This document shows, piece by piece, positions 2,402 to 13,106 of a DNA stretch of 38,673 nucleotides; position 1 is the first letter of the stretch, and each line of letters starts with the position of its first letter. The translations under genes and the position numbers were made by a program. Location of the stretch: contig VBBY01000006.1 in assembly GCA_005881595.1 (NCBI GenBank), positions 1 to 38,673 of the forward strand, written 5' to 3'. The notes under the pieces were generated by a model. That model was not told where the DNA came from and did not search any database. It was given only the letters and a program-made list of their open reading frames with translations. The stretch is from Betaproteobacteria bacterium (GTDB lineage Bacteria > Pseudomonadota > Gammaproteobacteria > Burkholderiales > SG8-39).

Positions 2402-4699
2402 TCATTGTAGCCAATAGCGCGCGCGGCGACGCCGCTCGGTCTGCACTTCGATGCCCGCCGCCGCGAGGCGCACCAGGACGGCGCCGTCCAGATCGGTGCG
2501 CAGGACTTCCGCGCCCGCGGCGCGATAGCGCTCCAGCACTTCCCGGCTCGGGTGGCCGAAGCGGTTGCGGTATCCGACCGGCACCACCGCCCAGCGCGGC
2601 GCCACGGCCTGGATGAATTCAGCGGACGAGGATGTGCGGCTGCCATGATGCGGCACCAGGAGCACGTCCGTGCCGGGAAACTTGCTGGTCTGAATGATCT
2701 GGCTCTCGGCAAGGCGCTCGATATCGCCGGTGAGCAGCATCGAGCCGCCGCTGCTCGCCACGCGCAGCACGCAGCTTTGATTGTTGCGCCGCGTCGTTTT
2801 CTCGAGGGACACCGGATGAACGAACTCGAAGCGCACGCCATCCCACTCCCAGGGTCCCGCCGCGAGGCAGCGCCGCGGGGCCGCCACCCAGGCGTTCAGC
2901 GTGTGCCCCGGCGGAAGCGAAGAAGCCAGGGCCTCCGCCTCGAGGCTCTCCAGCACGGTGAGCGCGCCGCCGAGGTGGTCGCTGTCTTCGTGGCTGAGGA
3001 CCACGAGGTCCAGGCGGGTGAGCCCGGCGGCGCGCAGATACGGCACGATCACCCGGTCGCCGCTGTCGGTCTCGGCGCCGAACGCCGGGCCGGCGTCGTA
3101 GAGCAGCGCGTGGCTCGTAGTACGGACCAGCACGGCGAGTCCCTGGCCGACGTCGAGCGTCGTGATCCAGGCTTCGCCGGGCGGCGGTGCCGGCGGCGCG
3201 AGCATGAACGCCGGCGCCATCAGCGCCAGCCCGCCGCTGCGCCACGGCACGCCGCGCGGCGCGAGCAGCCACGCCGCGCCGCCCAATGCGAGCAGCACGC
3301 ACCACAGCGGCGGCACATGCTGCTGCCACAGCGCGCCGGGCAGCGCCGCGCACCACTCGAGAAACTGCAGCAGCAACTCGACCAGCCACGACGCGAGCTG
3401 GACAAGCGCATCGACCGGAATCAGCGCGGCGACGAGGGCGAGCGGCGTGATGACCGCCGAGACCGCCGGGATCGCGACCGCATTGGCGAGCGGACCGGCG
3501 ACCGAGACCTGCCCGAACAGCAGCAGCACCGCCGGCGCCAGCCCGACGGTAATCGCCCATTGAATGCGGCCCCACTGCGCAAGGAAGGCTCCGGCCGAAG
3601 TCCAGCCGGAGGCGACATAGAAGATCAGCATCACCGCGCCGAACGAGAGCCACAGGCCCGGCGCGAGCGGCGCCCAGGGATCGAAAATCACCACCGCCGC
3701 AAGCGCGAGCGCAAGCGTGCGGCCCGGCGAGGCAATGCGCCCCGACCACAGCGCGATGGCGACGACCGTCACCATGTAGAAGGTGCGCTGTGCCGGCACC
3801 GCGAAGCCCGCGAGCAGCGTGTAGCCGAGCGCGCCGACAATCGCCGCAGCCGCTGCCGCTTTCCTGGCGGGAAGACAAAGGGTCAGTGCCGGCACGCGTC
3901 GCCATCCAGCCGCCACCAGCCATGCGAACAGGCCGGAAATCAGCGTCACGTGCAGGCCAGAGATGCTCATCAGGTGAGTGACCCCGGTGCGGTTGAAGAG
4001 CCGCCATTCCTCGCCGGAGATGGCGCGCTGGTCGCCGACGGCGAGCGCGGCCAGGATGCCCGCTGCGGGCGTAGCGCCGAGCACGCTCCGGAAGCGGTCG
4101 CGCACCGCCTCGCGGGCTTTCTCGATCCAATCCATGAGACTGTTGCGCTCGCCGAGCCTTAGCTGCTCGCCGCGCGAGCGGACGTAGCCGGTGGCGCCGA
4201 TGCCGCGCTCGAGCAGCCAGGCCTCGTAGTCGAAGCCGTGGGGATTGACGGTGCCGTGCGGCCGGCGCAGCCGCACCGTGAAGCGCCAGCGCTCGCCGGG
4301 ATGAACCATGTCGGCGAGGAGCGCCGGCTGGTCTTCGTCCGCGCTGCCGCGATACCAGGACAGCAGGATCTTCGACGGCAGCTTCTGCTCTGCGGATTCG
4401 ACGTCGAATTCAAACCGCGCACCGCGCTCGCCGAGGGCCGGCAGGGCGGCGACGACGCCGACCACCTGGAGGTCGCGTCCTTCGAGCTCGGGCGAGAGCC
4501 AGTCCGCCATGCGCCAGTGCGCGCAAGCCGTCGCCCACAGGAACCCGCTCGCCAAGGCAAACACCGCGGCGCCTCGCCAGCGCAGCGCCGCGAGGCCGAT
4601 GCACAGCGGCAGGAACGCGAGCCAGGCGAGCCAGGGGAGCTGCGCCTGCTGCTGAAGCAGCGCCGCGCCAGCCGCGAACGCGAGCGCCGCCAGGGTCAT
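2402..4699 (-). CDS. comEC: ComEC/Rec2 family DNA-uptake channel
   Basis: 765-residue inner-membrane protein, the expected length for proteobacterial ComEC. Order: N-terminal membrane segments and a soluble DUF4131/OB-like part (to about 200), the competence domain with many hydrophobic helices (about 200-480, including the conserved HLMSISGLHVTLISGL), and a C-terminal metallo-beta-lactamase-like domain (about 505-750). In the last domain LDVGQG, YDAGPA, LSHEDSDHLGG, LLTGD and PHHGS are visible. ComEC transports single-stranded DNA into the cytoplasm during natural transformation, and the C-terminal domain is thought to degrade the other strand. It diverges from the DUF2062 gene with a 40-bp gap. 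No other competence genes are present. Confidence 0.95.
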   Translation of the reverse strand: MTLAALAFAAGAALLQQQAQLPWLAWLAFLPLCIGLAALRWRGAAVFALASGFLWATACAHWRMADWLSPELEGRDLQVVGVVAALPALGERGARFEFDVESAEQKLPSKILLSWYRGSADEDQPALLADMVHPGERWRFTVRLRRPHGTVNPHGFDYEAWLLERGIGATGYVRSRGEQLRLGERNSLMDWIEKAREAVRDRFRSVLGATPAAGILAALAVGDQRAISGEEWRLFNRTGVTHLMSISGLHVTLISGLFAWLVAAGWRRVPALTLCLPARKAAAAAAIVGALGYTLLAGFAVPAQRTFYMVTVVAIALWSGRIASPGRTLALALAAVVIFDPWAPLAPGLWLSFGAVMLIFYVASGWTSAGAFLAQWGRIQWAITVGLAPAVLLLFGQVSVAGPLANAVAIPAVSAVITPLALVAALIPVDALVQLASWLVELLLQFLEWCAALPGALWQQHVPPLWCVLLALGGAAWLLAPRGVPWRSGGLALMAPAFMLAPPAPPPGEAWITTLDVGQGLAVLVRTTSHALLYDAGPAFGAETDSGDRVIVPYLRAAGLTRLDLVVLSHEDSDHLGGALTVLESLEAEALASSLPPGHTLNAWVAAPRRCLAAGPWEWDGVRFEFVHPVSLEKTTRRNNQSCVLRVASSGGSMLLTGDIERLAESQIIQTSKFPGTDVLLVPHHGSRTSSSAEFIQAVAPRWAVVPVGYRNRFGHPSREVLERYRAAGAEVLRTDLDGAVLVRLAAAGIEVQTERRRRARYWLQ
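2404..2409 (-). promoter_or_regulatory. Candidate -10 element for dodecin, overlapping the comEC stop
   Basis: TACAAT on the minus strand, formed by the last codons of comEC (CTA CAA TGA). It lies 56 bases upstream of the dodecin ATG. No good -35 is visible at 16-18 bases. The same hexamer precedes the HugZ-like and GST genes in this window, which makes it a plausible sigma-70 site. Confidence 0.4.
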
Positions 4700-8238: not shown

Positions 8239-9472
8239 ACCGCAGGGCTTCGGCGGGATTCACGCGCGCGGCGCGCCAGCTCGGGTAGAGCGTGGCGAAG
8301 AACGACAGCCCGAGCGCCATCAGCACGATCGCGCCGACGTCGCCCGCCTGCAGGTCCGAAGGCAGCTCTGGAATCAGGTACACGTCCTTGGACAGGAACT
8401 TGATGTTGAACGCGCTTTCGATCGCCGGGACGATGACGTCGATGTTGAGCGCGGTGACGATGCCCAGCCCCGCGCCGATCAGCGTGCCGGCGATGCCGAT
8501 CACCATCCCCTGCACGATGAAGATCTGCATCACCGAGCCGGGGGCGGCGCCGAGCGTGCGCAGGATGGCGATGTCGGCCTGCTTGTCGGTCACCGCGACG
8601 ACCAGGGTGGAGATGATGTTGATCGCGGCCACCAGGATGATCAGCGTGAGGATGATGAACATCATCCGCTTCTCGATCTCGACGGCGCGGAAGAAATTGG
8701 CGTGGCTGCGCGTCCAGTCGGAGGCGAACACGTTCTGCGGGAGCCTCGTCATCAGCTCGCGCGCGACGCTGCGCGCGGCAAACAGGTCGTCGAGCCGCAG
8801 GCGCACCCCGCTCACCGCGTCGCCCAGCTGGTAGAGCGTCTGCGCGTCGCGCAGGTGCACCAGCGCGAGGCCGGCGTCCGCGTCGGCCATGCCGACCTCG
8901 AAGCTGCCGACCACGGTGAACTGCTTGAGGCGCGGAATGACGCCTGCAGGGGTGACGAGACCTTGCGGCGCCACCAGGGCTAGCTTGTCTCCCGGCAGCA
9001 CGCCGAGCCCGCGCGCCAGGTCGGCGCCGAGGACGACGCCGAACTCTCCCGGGCGCAGGTCGGCGAGCGAGCCGCTGCGCATGTGCTGGCCGATGTCGGC
9101 AACCTTCTCCTCTTCCTCGGGCAGGATGCCGCGCACCACGGCGCCGCGCACCGCCTGTCCCGCCGCGAGCATCGCCTGCGCCTGCACGAAAGGCGCGGTG
9201 GCTCGCACGCGCGGGTGCTGCGCGGCGAGCGCGGCGACCGAGCGCCAGTCGGGCAGCCGGTTGTCGATGCTGCTGATCTGCACGTGCGAGGCGACGCCGA
9301 GGATGCGGGTGCGGACCTCCTTCTGGAAGCCGTTCATCACCGAGAGCACCACGATCAGCGCCCACACGCCGACAAAGATCCCGATCATCGACACGAGGGA
9401 GTTGATTCCGATGAAGCGGTTGCGGCGCTTGGCGCGGGTGTAGCGCAGGCCGACCAGGAGCTCGTATCGCAC
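8231..9472 (-). CDS. lolC: LolC/LolE lipoprotein-releasing permease
   Basis: 413 residues from a GTG at 9472. It begins with the conserved cytoplasmic segment [18 protein letters not shown], then helix 1, a periplasmic domain of about 200 residues, and three C-terminal helices of the FtsX/MacB type ([38 protein letters not shown] and the last pair), ending PAEALRYE. It forms the membrane part of LolCDE. There is one permease gene here rather than separate lolC and lolE. No Shine-Dalgarno precedes the GTG; a -10-like TATTCT on the minus strand (9482-9487) ends 9 bases before it. Confidence 0.94.
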
Positions 9473-9481
9473 GATCGCGCG

Positions 9482-9501
9482 AGAATACTACAATCGACGC
9501 T
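9482..9501. promoter_or_regulatory. Back-to-back -10 elements of the divergent lolC / HugZ-like pair
   Basis: The 29-bp gap between the two GTG starts contains AGAATA (9482-9487, TATTCT on the minus strand) and TACAAT (9489-9494, plus strand), one base apart. TACAAT is followed by 7 bases and the HugZ-like GTG. TATTCT is followed by 9 bases and the lolC GTG. Neither start has a Shine-Dalgarno sequence, so both mRNAs could be leaderless or nearly so. Two RNA polymerases could not occupy these sites at once. The -35 regions are poor matches. Confidence 0.45.
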
Positions 9502-9960
9502 GTGGACGCCGAGACCGGACGCTCGCTCGCCGGGCTGATCCGCAAGGAGCGCATCGCGCATCTGGGCACGCTGCGCGGCGGCGCGCCGCTGGTCTCGATG
9601 ACCCTGTTCATGGCCGGGCAGGATCTCGCCGCTTTCTACGTGCACGTCAGCCGGCTCGCGTGGCACACCCAGGACATGCTGCAGGACCCGCGCGTCGCGC
9701 TGTCGATCGCCGAGACCGACGACGGGCGTGCCGATCCATTCACGCTGATGCGCGTATCGATCCGCGGCGAGGCTTTGAATCTCAAAAATGAAATCCCGGA
9801 ATTGAAAGCCGCCTGGCTGCAACGTTTCCCGCAGCAGGCCATCAACTTCGAGCTCGCCGACTTTTCCTTCTGGAAGATCGCGCCGCGCGACGCGCGCTTC
9901 GTCGCCGGTTTCGGGCGCATCCACAACCTCTCCGCGGCCGGCCTGCGTGCACTCGCCTGA
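9502..9960 (+). CDS. HugZ-like / pyridoxamine 5'-phosphate oxidase-family protein
   Basis: 152-residue split-barrel flavin/haem-type protein. It opens with the segment LAGLIRKERIAHLGTLRGG followed by APLVSMTLF and FYVHVSRLAWHTQDM, then PRVALSIAE, the usual order in HugZ-type members of the PNPOx-like fold. It ends with SFWKIAPRDARFVAGFGRIHNLS, which is also characteristic. HugZ proteins bind haem or flavin, and some take part in haem degradation, but this branch is mostly uncharacterised. The GTG start lies 7 bases after TACAAT with no Shine-Dalgarno. The next gene starts directly after the stop codon. Confidence 0.82.
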   Translation: MDAETGRSLAGLIRKERIAHLGTLRGGAPLVSMTLFMAGQDLAAFYVHVSRLAWHTQDMLQDPRVALSIAETDDGRADPFTLMRVSIRGEALNLKNEIPELKAAWLQRFPQQAINFELADFSFWKIAPRDARFVAGFGRIHNLSAAGLRALA

Positions 9961-10776
9961 ATGAAGATCTTCGGCGTTGATTTCACCTCGGCGCCTTGCC
10001 GCAGGAAGGCGATCACGGTCGCGGCAGGGAGATTGAAGGGCATGACCCTCGCGATCCAGGGAATCGAAAGGCTGGAAACGTTCAGCGCCTTCGAAGCCCT
10101 GCTCGCCAGACCCGGCCCCTGGATCGGCGGCTTCGATTTTCCCTTCGGGCTGCCGGCCGAGCTGTGCCGCGACCTCGGCTGGCCGCTCGAGTGGAAGGCG
10201 CTGGTTTCACATTGCTCCGGCCTTACCCGGCAGCAACTGCGCTGCGCGCTGGACGCCTATCGAAATTCCAGGCCGGCCGGACGCAAATATGCGCATCGCG
10301 CGACCGACCTTCCCGCCGGCTCGTCCAGCCCGATGAAGCTGGTGAACCCGCCGGTCGCGCTGATGTTCCACGAGGGTGCGCGGCGCATTGCCGGGGCGGG
10401 CGTGCATGTGCCTGCCCTGTGCGACGGCGACCCGCAGCGCGTTGCGCTCGAGGCCTATCCCGGCCTGCTCGCGCGCAGGCAGCTCGGTATGCGTGAGTCG
10501 TACAAGAGCGACACGCCCGCCAAGCAGAACGGGCCTCGGAAGGCGATAAGAAAGAAAATCGTCCAGGCTCTCCGCGCGGGCCATCCGCTCGGCATTCGCG
10601 TGCAGCTCGGGGATGGCCTCGAACGCGCCGTCGTCGGCGACGGCGCAGCGGACCTGCTCGATGCGGTGATCTGCGCGACGCAGGCGGCGTGGGCAGCGCT
10701 GCGCCCGCACTACGGTCTGCCTGCCGGCGCGTTCGGCGCTGAGGGCTGGATCGTCTCCGCCGGCACCAGCTCGTAG
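9961..10776 (+). CDS. DUF429 domain protein
   Basis: 271 residues. The N-terminus (MKIFGVDFTSAP) and the segment GPWIGGFDFPFGLP carry the two acidic motifs of the DUF429 family, which resembles RNase H-fold nucleases. Later VALEAYPGLLARR and GDGAADLLDAVICATQAAWAA complete the family pattern, including the conserved late Asp. The ATG begins the base after the stop of the HugZ-like gene, so the two form an operon. Function is unknown; a nuclease role is only inferred from the fold. The last 67 bases overlap the convergent lipoprotein gene. Confidence 0.82.
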   Translation: MKIFGVDFTSAPCRRKAITVAAGRLKGMTLAIQGIERLETFSAFEALLARPGPWIGGFDFPFGLPAELCRDLGWPLEWKALVSHCSGLTRQQLRCALDAYRNSRPAGRKYAHRATDLPAGSSSPMKLVNPPVALMFHEGARRIAGAGVHVPALCDGDPQRVALEAYPGLLARRQLGMRESYKSDTPAKQNGPRKAIRKKIVQALRAGHPLGIRVQLGDGLERAVVGDGAADLLDAVICATQAAWAALRPHYGLPAGAFGAEGWIVSAGTSS

Positions 10777-11087
10777 CCTTTCGAGCGCATGCAGAAGCTC
10801 GCCAGCCGCGCCTCCTCCATGAGCTGATCGCTGAAGGGATCGCCGAAAGGCGAGGCAGGCCACACGAAGAAGCGGCGACCCTGCGCGTCCTGCATTATCG
10901 TCGGCCCGATCGGGCGGTAAAGCCAGGCGCGGAAGCGCGCTTCGCGCCACGCTTCCTGCTGGCACTGCGCAGCGTCCTGGCTGAGCTGCTGCGGCGTCGC
11001 CTCCGGCTTCACCCACTGCATCGGCGTGCACGCAGCGACGGCGAGCGCAGCGCAAGCGATCGGACGGACAGCTACAATCGGCCGCAT
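10710..11087 (-). CDS. Small predicted lipoprotein of unknown function
   Basis: 125 residues from ATG 11087 (an alternative ATG at 11093 adds two). The N-terminus is a lipoprotein signal peptide, Arg-rich start then a hydrophobic stretch ending VAAC (Cys about residue 20) followed by TPMQW. The mature part has conserved-looking segments PQQLSQDAAQCQQEAW and EEARLASFCMRSKGYELVP, resembling small betaproteobacterial outer-membrane lipoproteins with two Cys. The function is unknown. Its start codon shares CATG with the GST start. A -10-like TACACT (11094-11099) lies 6 bases upstream, inside the GST coding region. The 3' end overlaps the DUF429 gene by 67 bases. Confidence 0.78.
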   Translation of the reverse strand: MRPIVAVRPIACAALAVAACTPMQWVKPEATPQQLSQDAAQCQQEAWREARFRAWLYRPIGPTIMQDAQGRRFFVWPASPFGDPFSDQLMEEARLASFCMRSKGYELVPAETIQPSAPNAPAGRP

Positions 11088-11099
11088 GCTCATAGTGTA
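11073..11099. promoter_or_regulatory. Overlapping divergent start codons with paired -10 elements (lipoprotein / GST)
   Basis: Plus strand: TACAAT at 11073-11078, 7 bases, then the GST ATG at 11086. Minus strand: TACACT at 11099-11094, 6 bases, then the lipoprotein ATG at 11087. The two ATGs overlap in CATG (11085-11088). Each -10 hexamer lies inside the other gene's first codons. No Shine-Dalgarno is present on either side, so the predicted transcripts would begin at or next to the start codon. Confidence 0.5.
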
Positions 11100-11691
11100 C
11101 GGAATGTCGGACTCGGGCAACTGCTACAAGGTCAAGCTGGCGCTCGAGCAGCTCGGCCTCGCCTACCGCTGGATCGAGGTCGATCCTGTCAAGGGGGAAA
11201 CGGCAAGCGCCGCATTCCTCGCCAAGAATCCGAACGGCAAGGTGCCGACGCTCGAGCTCGAAAACGGCGAATTTCTTCCCGAATCCAATGCGATCCTGAA
11301 CTACCTCGCCGACGGAACGCCGCTGCTGCCCGGGCAGCGGCTCGCTCGCGCGCGCGTGCTGCAATGGATGTTCTTCGAGCAGTACAGCCATGAGCCTTAC
11401 ATCGCGGTGGCGCGCTCGATCATGCGCTATACGGCGCCCGATTCGCCCGAGCGCGCCCAGCTTCCCCGGCTGCACAGCCGCGGCCAGCGCGCGCTTGGCG
11501 TCATGGAGCAGCACCTGGAGCGCGAGCCGTTCCTCGCTGCGGGCCGCTACACCGTCGCCGACATCGCGCTCTACGCCTACACCCATTGCGCCGCCGACGG
11601 CGGCTTCGACCTGGGGAAATACCCCGCGCTACTCGCCTGGCTCGACCGCGTCGCCTCGCAGCCGCGCCACGTGCCGCTGCATTTGCGGTAG
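11086..11691 (+). CDS. Glutathione S-transferase family protein
   Basis: 201 residues from ATG 11086. N-terminal thioredoxin-fold domain: LIVYGMSDSGNCYKVKLALEQLG (a catalytic-type Ser/Cys region), the cis-Pro motif GKVPTLEL at about residue 50, and the glutathione-binding PESNAILNYLA. The C-terminal helical domain contains YTVADIALYAYTH, the standard N-capping motif. It probably conjugates or reduces small electrophiles with glutathione; substrate unknown. The longer open frame from 11026 is rejected because it would run through the lipoprotein gene and adds non-family sequence. No ribosome-binding site is seen. Confidence 0.92.
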   Translation: MLIVYGMSDSGNCYKVKLALEQLGLAYRWIEVDPVKGETASAAFLAKNPNGKVPTLELENGEFLPESNAILNYLADGTPLLPGQRLARARVLQWMFFEQYSHEPYIAVARSIMRYTAPDSPERAQLPRLHSRGQRALGVMEQHLEREPFLAAGRYTVADIALYAYTHCAADGGFDLGKYPALLAWLDRVASQPRHVPLHLR

Positions 11692-11717: not shown

Positions 11718-13106
11718 ATGCTGCGGGACGCGCCGCTCGCGATCGTCGACCTCGAGACCACCGGCACGCATCCGGCCCGCGATCGCGTCACCGAGATCGC
11801 GGTATTGGAGGTGAACGGCTTCGAGCTCGCCGCCGAGTGGTCGACGCTGGTCAACCCCGAGACCGGCATCGAGCCCGGCATCCAGGCGCTCACCGGCATC
11901 AGCAACGAGATGGTCGCCGCCGCGCCGCGTTTCGCCGCGCTCGCCGCCGAGCTCTACGAGCGGCTCGACGGTCGCCTGCTCATCGCGCACAACGCGCGCT
12001 TCGATTACGGCTTCCTGCGGCGCGAGTTCGAGCGCGCCGGCCTGAAGTACCTGTCGAAGACGCTGTGCACCGTGAAGCTCTCGCGGCGGCTCTATCCCGG
12101 GCATGCGCGCCACAACCTGGACAGCCTGATCGAGCGCCACGGGCTCGCCTGCCCTGCCCGGCACCGCGCCCTGGCCGACGCCGAGGCGCTGTGGCAGTTC
12201 CTGCAGCTCGCCGCGCGCGAGCACGGCGAGGAGATCGTGGCGGTGGCGGCGCGCCAGATCGCTCGCCAGCCGACCCTGCCGCCGCATCTCGAGCGCGCGG
12301 CGATCGACGCCATTCCGGAGGCGCCCGGCGTCTACCTCTTCTACGGGGCAGGCGGGACGCCGCTCTATGTCGGCAAGAGCGTGGCCATGCGCACGCGGGT
12401 CCTCGCGCACTTCTCGGACGACATCCGCTCCCAGAAGGAGATGCAGCTGGCGCGCGAAGTCCGGCGCATCGATTGGCGGCGCACTGCCGGCGAGCTCGGC
12501 GCGCTGCTGGCCGAGGCGCGGCTGGTGAAGGAGCTTGCGCCCGCGTACAACCGCCAGCTGCGCAAGCCCGGCGAGCTGTGCGGCTTCGTCTTCGACTTCA
12601 AGCGCCTGCGCCTGGCCCAGGCGTGCGAGATCGATGCCGACACGCTGCCCTTCCTCTACGGCCTGTTTCGCTCGAAGCGCGCGGCGCACAGCGCTCTGCG
12701 GGCGATCGCCGACGAGCACCGGCTTTGCCTGCAGACGCTGGGCTTCGACACGGCCCGCCATGGGGCGTGCTTTCGCCACCAAATCGGCCGCTGCGCAGGC
12801 GTGTGCGCCGGCAAGGAGAATATTCATCAGCACCACGCGCGCCTGGCGAGCGAGCTGGCCAAGCTGAGGACGGCGCAGTGGCGGCATCGCGGCCCGCTCG
12901 GCATCGTCGAGCGCGACCCGGAAGGCGACGCTTCCGAGGTGCACGTGGTGCACCAATGGTGCTATCTCGGCACGGCGCGCTCAGATGACGAGCTCGCCGG
13001 GCTGCTGGAGGCCGGTCCGCGCCCGCGCTTCGACTACGACCACTACAAGATCCTCACCCGCCACCTCGGCCGGAAAGGCGTGCGGGTCGTCGAGCTCGGC
13101 GCCTGA
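11718..13106 (+). CDS. DEDDh 3'-5' exonuclease fused to a GIY-YIG (UvrC/Cho-like) nuclease
   Basis: 462 residues from ATG 11718 (GGACGGAT ribosome-binding site). The N-terminal exonuclease has all three motifs: IVDLETTGTHP (DxE), LIAHNARFDYGFL (Asp) and HRALADAEALWQF (HxxxxD). The GIY-YIG domain (about 190-275) shows GVYLFYG, PLYVGKS, the Arg helix and the acidic EARLVKE. The C-terminus carries a Cys-rich segment with H-x-x-C-FRHQIGRCAGVCAGKE. This fusion of a DnaQ-like proofreading exonuclease with a UvrC-type endonuclease is a known but little-studied family, presumably in DNA repair. Its stop overlaps the next ATG (TGATG). Confidence 0.9.
   Translation: MLRDAPLAIVDLETTGTHPARDRVTEIAVLEVNGFELAAEWSTLVNPETGIEPGIQALTGISNEMVAAAPRFAALAAELYERLDGRLLIAHNARFDYGFLRREFERAGLKYLSKTLCTVKLSRRLYPGHARHNLDSLIERHGLACPARHRALADAEALWQFLQLAAREHGEEIVAVAARQIARQPTLPPHLERAAIDAIPEAPGVYLFYGAGGTPLYVGKSVAMRTRVLAHFSDDIRSQKEMQLAREVRRIDWRRTAGELGALLAEARLVKELAPAYNRQLRKPGELCGFVFDFKRLRLAQACEIDADTLPFLYGLFRSKRAAHSALRAIADEHRLCLQTLGFDTARHGACFRHQIGRCAGVCAGKENIHQHHARLASELAKLRTAQWRHRGPLGIVERDPEGDASEVHVVHQWCYLGTARSDDELAGLLEAGPRPRFDYDHYKILTRHLGRKGVRVVELGA

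Follow-up and report, generated by a model that had tools for sequence, protein, structure and literature searches.

Leaderless genes of the TA-led kind carry a TANNNT box about 10-13 bp before the start codon and no Shine-Dalgarno sequence (Zheng et al. 2011, PMC3160421), and in beta-proteobacteria, where 9 of 71 genomes were found to have them, they average 6.8% of the genes in those nine (PMC3160421). Mapping of transcription start sites (TSSs) in C. metallidurans assigned 4.67% of primary TSSs to leaderless transcripts (PMC7563307), and the TSS map of B. cenocepacia likewise documents leaderless genes (PMC4603805).

Compact divergent arrangements have been described as well. According to the account of Warman et al. 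2021 given in PMC12825309, bidirectional promoters with a symmetric -10 element share the -11A and -7T positions across the two strands and have divergent starts 18 bp apart. Divergent gene overlaps longer than 60 bp, by comparison, were all judged to be start misannotations by Palleja et al. 2008 (PMC2478687). Neither leaderless genes nor bidirectional promoters are new; our literature searches found no specific report of overlapping divergent leaderless starts, which is weak evidence of their rarity.

Here we analyse a 38,673-nucleotide stretch of betaproteobacterial DNA (the window), taken from a fragmented assembly of 257 contigs, in which a glutathione S-transferase (GST) gene and a small lipoprotein gene diverge from overlapping start codons. 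The preliminary description of this junction had reported a shared CATG, TACAAT-N7-ATG on the plus strand, TACACT-N6-ATG on the minus strand and no Shine-Dalgarno sequence on either side, all of which direct reading of the sequence confirms. It had further proposed that both mRNAs are leaderless and that the two promoters act as a reciprocal switch.

The GST/lipoprotein junction

The features of the junction are as follows.
11073-11099: junction stretch by direct reading, with the letters given in the preliminary description, 11073 TACAATCGGCCGCATGCTCATAGTGTA 11099
11086..11691, plus strand: GST gene, 201 aa, ATG start; Pfam GST_N/GST_C; homologues align from M(L/F)TVYG
10710..11087, minus strand: small lipoprotein gene, 125 aa (ATG 11087) or 127 aa (ATG 11093); lipobox VAAC
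11085-11088, both strands: CATG common to both start codons, by direct reading
11073..11078, plus strand: TACAAT, likely GST -10, followed by N7 and the ATG at 11086-11088
11099-11094, minus strand: TACACT, -10-like, N6 from the lipoprotein ATG at 11087-11085
11091..11093, minus strand: alternative in-frame lipoprotein ATG (MSMRPIV...), by sequence reading
11066..11079, minus strand: block conserved among relatives, GATTGTAGCTGTCC in the window, GATTCTAGCTGTCC in G074, GATCCTAGCGGTCC in G076 and GATGTTAGCGGTCT in G075

The GST start is backed by homology, since its homologues have their N-termini at the same M(L/F)TVYG; a GTG upstream at 11026 was rejected because the extension that it would add is present in no homologue. 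On the other strand, the six bases between TACACT and the ATG at 11087 read ATGAGC and themselves contain a second in-frame ATG at 11093, so the choice between the two lipoprotein starts is not fixed, and the overlap with GST amounts to 2-8 bp depending on which is used. A TTG at 11120 was set aside as implausible, as it adds nine residues to the signal peptide before MSM. By sequence reading, a Shine-Dalgarno sequence is absent ahead of the GST ATG and of both lipoprotein ATGs, and a promoter scanner found no two-box sigma-70 promoter at the junction, only -10-like hexamers.

The lipoprotein matched no Pfam or NCBIfam family. Judged from its homologues in 21 of 98 family genomes and from purifying selection, it is a real gene: comparison with the congener G074 gave dN 0.27 and dS 1.09, a dN/dS of about 0.25; as a mean over all the time since the two lineages split, this value would not register a loss of very recent date. 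The same ratio lends no support to a gene decaying after loss of its start. At its other end, the lipoprotein gene (ending at 10710) overlaps a convergent DUF429 gene on the plus strand (ending at 10776) by 67 bp, at 10710-10776. In relatives, the gene also occurs in tandem, with two copies in G075 (L088, C111), where they sit between DUF429 and the exonuclease, and four in G076 (L109, C81).

The GST gene and its likely -10 box

The GST gene has a likely -10 box placed for a transcription start at the start codon and no Shine-Dalgarno sequence, and the box is retained as TAGAAT-N7-ATG in G074 and TAGAAT-N8-GTG in G081, the only two congeners with the GST/lipoprotein pair, so that statements about conservation rest on few sequences. 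An order-wide search for GST added merely two distant matches. In G040, TACAAT-N7-ATG also precedes GST; this case was rejected as independent conservation, since GST adjoins lolC there and its box is that of the lolC promoter, which also stands, in identical form, ahead of PPOX in the window.

Whole-genome pattern searches place this box in a wider context. In the window's own genome, TACAATN{k}ATG occurs at 54 sites, against 19 for the reversed-pattern control, with a spacing peak at k=6 (n=9) and k=7 (n=7) compared with about 1.3 per other spacing. In a 636-kb sample processed with a simple gene caller, which missed the lipoprotein gene itself and whose gene counts are therefore approximate, TANNNT stands at N5-8 before 49 of 575 called genes, roughly three times the level of most other spacings. 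By these patterns, predicted leaderless genes are a regular class in this genome.

The GST mRNA is thus likely leaderless, because TANAAT at N7-8 is kept in both congeners and the genome as a whole shows the spacing peak. In box position and in the lack of a Shine-Dalgarno sequence, GST agrees with the described TA-led genes (PMC3160421, PMC4603805, PMC7563307) and shows no difference from them.

Origin of the start overlap

In the two congeners, the lipoprotein starts at -31 (MSRLPFALGLLLFAAGC, G074) and -27 (MRIVFPALAALLLAAC, G081) relative to the GST start, and both starts carry good lipoprotein signal peptides. The conserved block, whose plus-strand reading is the GST -10, precedes the lipoprotein start as GATNNTAGCNGTCY in G074, G076 and G075 and partly in G081, while in the window it lies inside the lipoprotein frame. 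It is retained in G075 even though GST is absent there and the divergent partner is the exonuclease. The window has 49 nt between the block and the lipobox Cys, whereas G074 has 73, G081 65, G076 63 and G075 66; the window segment is therefore 14-24 nt shorter than in these four relatives, and the ancestral lipoprotein start codon is gone. The frame remains open back through the block to 11087 and 11093, with no start codon between the block and the lipobox Cys. A 14-24 nt deletion next to the GST box best explains these features, and the overlap would accordingly be derived, because the segment is shorter, the ancestral start is lost and the frame is open to 11087/11093. An overlapping start is also possible in G074, whose lipoprotein frame extends without a stop to an ATG at +2, although the better signal peptide begins at -31.

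The shorter segment could instead reflect a sequencing or assembly error, with 14-24 bp missing around 11050-11067 and the true lipoprotein start in a normal gap, as in the congeners. The segment is longer in four relatives and the assembly is fragmented, but the frame stays open, the window segment encodes a plausible lipoprotein signal and no other mark of error is present, which leaves this explanation very improbable. Like the overlaps discussed by Palleja et al. 2008 (PMC2478687), the one in the window is a 5'-end overlap set by upstream start-codon extension; unlike them, it spans only 2-8 bp, and no in-frame alternative to its upstream start remains before the lipobox.

The congeners also invite comparison with symmetric -10 bidirectional promoters. 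The GST TAGAAT and the lipoprotein GATTCT (TAGAATC/GATTCTA) share the -11A and -7T base pairs, with the lipoprotein ATG downstream in G074 and G081, so the conserved block may serve as a -10 on both strands there. In the window, a lipoprotein start driven by such a shared box would fall inside the reading frame, and the previously proposed TACAAT and TACACT differ further from the symmetric type, being 15 bp apart, face to face, and having no bases in common.

Nor is the partnership itself fixed. GST lies behind a same-strand gene and has a Shine-Dalgarno sequence in G041 and G042, it stands beside lolC in G040, and in G075 and G023 the lipoprotein occurs without GST at that place. The preliminary description had suggested comparing the junction in related genomes, and here the GST -10 is kept in G074 and G081 while TACACT and the start overlap are not. 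Separated, Shine-Dalgarno-bearing starts, which it had named as evidence against its reading, turned up in part, as separated starts in G074 and G081 and as a Shine-Dalgarno sequence ahead of GST in G041 and G042.

The TACACT hexamer and the proposed switch

In both pair-bearing congeners, the site of TACACT differs (TAGACC in G074, TAGACG in G081), and only the window has TACACT there. Its "TA" arises as the reverse complement of Tyr codon 5 in GST, a residue that 67 of 78 GST homologues share; TANNNT results in 3 of those 67. The final T stems from an ATA codon in GST, a codon that makes up 2.2% of Ile codons overall and 4.5% in codons 2-6, and the genome shows a mild excess of TACACT-N6-ATG sites (5 against about 1.5). 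The rare codon and the mild enrichment could mean that TACACT is under selection; they are the sole evidence for its function and keep the earlier reading alive at low probability. A leaderless lipoprotein mRNA, the second half of the claim made for both genes, is unsupported: no -10 is conserved at leaderless spacing, which sets the gene apart from the TA-led class, and the congener starts lie 27-31 bp from that of GST.

The lipoprotein might alternatively be transcribed with a leader from deeper within GST, starting at 11087 or 11093, with only GST leaderless. TACACT lacks a -35 partner at 16-18 nt in the promoter scan, and 5' leaders in B. cenocepacia peak at 21-30 nt, most exceeding 17 nt (PMC4603805). 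Neither ATG, however, has a Shine-Dalgarno sequence ahead of it, and across the 1.2 kb scanned there was no better promoter besides one weak site inside the lipoprotein gene; we regard this alternative as unlikely, if worth keeping in view.

A reciprocal switch would use both -10 boxes, so that leaderless mRNAs begin face to face at CATG, the polymerases exclude one another and GST and lipoprotein are expressed reciprocally. Both boxes do stand at leaderless spacing, and the TACACT-N6-ATG enrichment and the ATA codon fit this reading, as does the missing ancestral start, which would call for a new transcription start if the gene is expressed. If both boxes are used, the polymerase footprints overlap and exclusion is physically plausible, and polymerase competition has been shown at bidirectional promoters of E. 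coli under strong activation of one direction (PMC12825309). On the other side, neither TACACT nor the GST/lipoprotein partnership is conserved, no functional link or regulator is known, and basal transcription in E. coli was too low for competition at five of five bidirectional promoters tested (PMC12825309), so that geometry alone does not make a switch.

In the 636-kb sample, -10-like sites on both sides (TANNNT at N5-8) occur in only 1 of 78 divergent pairs. The mutual geometry TACAAT N5-8 CATG N4-8 ANNNTA matched 16 times in the 98 family genomes, while its reversed pattern matched 5 times; this excess would be accounted for by the general excess of TACAAT before ATG, which is of similar size (54 against 19 in the window's own genome). 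With neither the overlap nor the partnership conserved, the junction is not a conserved pair of mutually exclusive promoters; nothing beyond geometry speaks for a reciprocal GST/lipoprotein switch, which stands unsupported and which we consider improbable.

Other compact divergent starts and neighbouring genes

Between lolC (-) and PPOX (+), at 9472-9504 in the window, the -10 boxes TAGTAT (-, 9490-9485) and TACAAT (+, 9489-9494) overlap, and PPOX is leaderless-like (TACAAT-N7-GTG). The sequence GAGAATACTACAAT and the N7 to the plus-strand start are identical in the window, G023, G041 and G040, four genomes of three genera; G040 has GST in place of PPOX behind the lolC promoter. The promoter is conserved and probably bidirectional and, on this comparison, it is better conserved than the GST/lipoprotein junction 1.6 kb away.

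Elsewhere in the same genome, a divergent pair named nadK-like and hrcA-like by reading the sequence rather than by a family search has CATGCGCTCGAGTGTACAATGATTTTCATG at L175:9219-9248 (C194:19219-19248). Its TACACT (-) and TACAAT (+) share two bases and lie seven bases ahead of their respective ATGs, so that one symmetric promoter would yield two leaderless mRNAs. A second CATG start overlap, at L160:8408-8411 (C96), joins an ABC-transporter ATPase gene (-), whose start may be mis-called, to a kinase-like gene (+) with TACTAT five bases before its ATG.

Downstream of GST, at 11718-13106 in the window, lies an exonuclease fused to a Cho/UvrC-type nuclease domain. The gap before it in G081 (L004, near 3600-3640) contains TACTGTATAAAAATCC, which resembles an SOS (LexA) box; the window version is degenerate.

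Discussion

The junction is probably best explained by a leaderless GST gene and a start overlap left by a deletion, a by-product rather than a conserved switch. GST would be transcribed from TACAAT, with the 5' end of its mRNA at the ATG or within a base or two of it. In the congeners, the GST box lies within the 27-31 bp gap and is probably also the source of a divergent lipoprotein mRNA with a very short leader, as the symmetry of the -10 would permit: TAGAATC reads backwards as GATTCTA, so one box could serve both strands. In the lineage of the window, 14-24 bp between the box and the lipobox Cys would have been lost along with the original start codon and, with the frame happening to be open upstream, the lipoprotein would now most likely start at 11087 or 11093, touching the GST start. 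Its current transcription may come from TACACT inside GST, from another start deeper in GST, or be poor. The TACACT/TACAAT arrangement thus looks like an ordinary local rearrangement, not a built-in switch.

There is a slim chance that the lipoprotein, having lost its start, captured a new start codon and promoter in the first codons of the leaderless GST gene, which would place face-to-face, mutually exclusive leaderless promoters within 27 bp. Were this true, the locus would offer a modest natural experiment on polymerase exclusion, and nothing more.

On the favoured explanation of deletion beside the GST box, the case cautions against inferring a switch from a pair of -10-like hexamers if the coding sequence of one gene itself dictates the hexamer assigned to its neighbour, and it would illustrate how a small deletion beside a compact leaderless promoter can bring two head-to-head starts into overlap.
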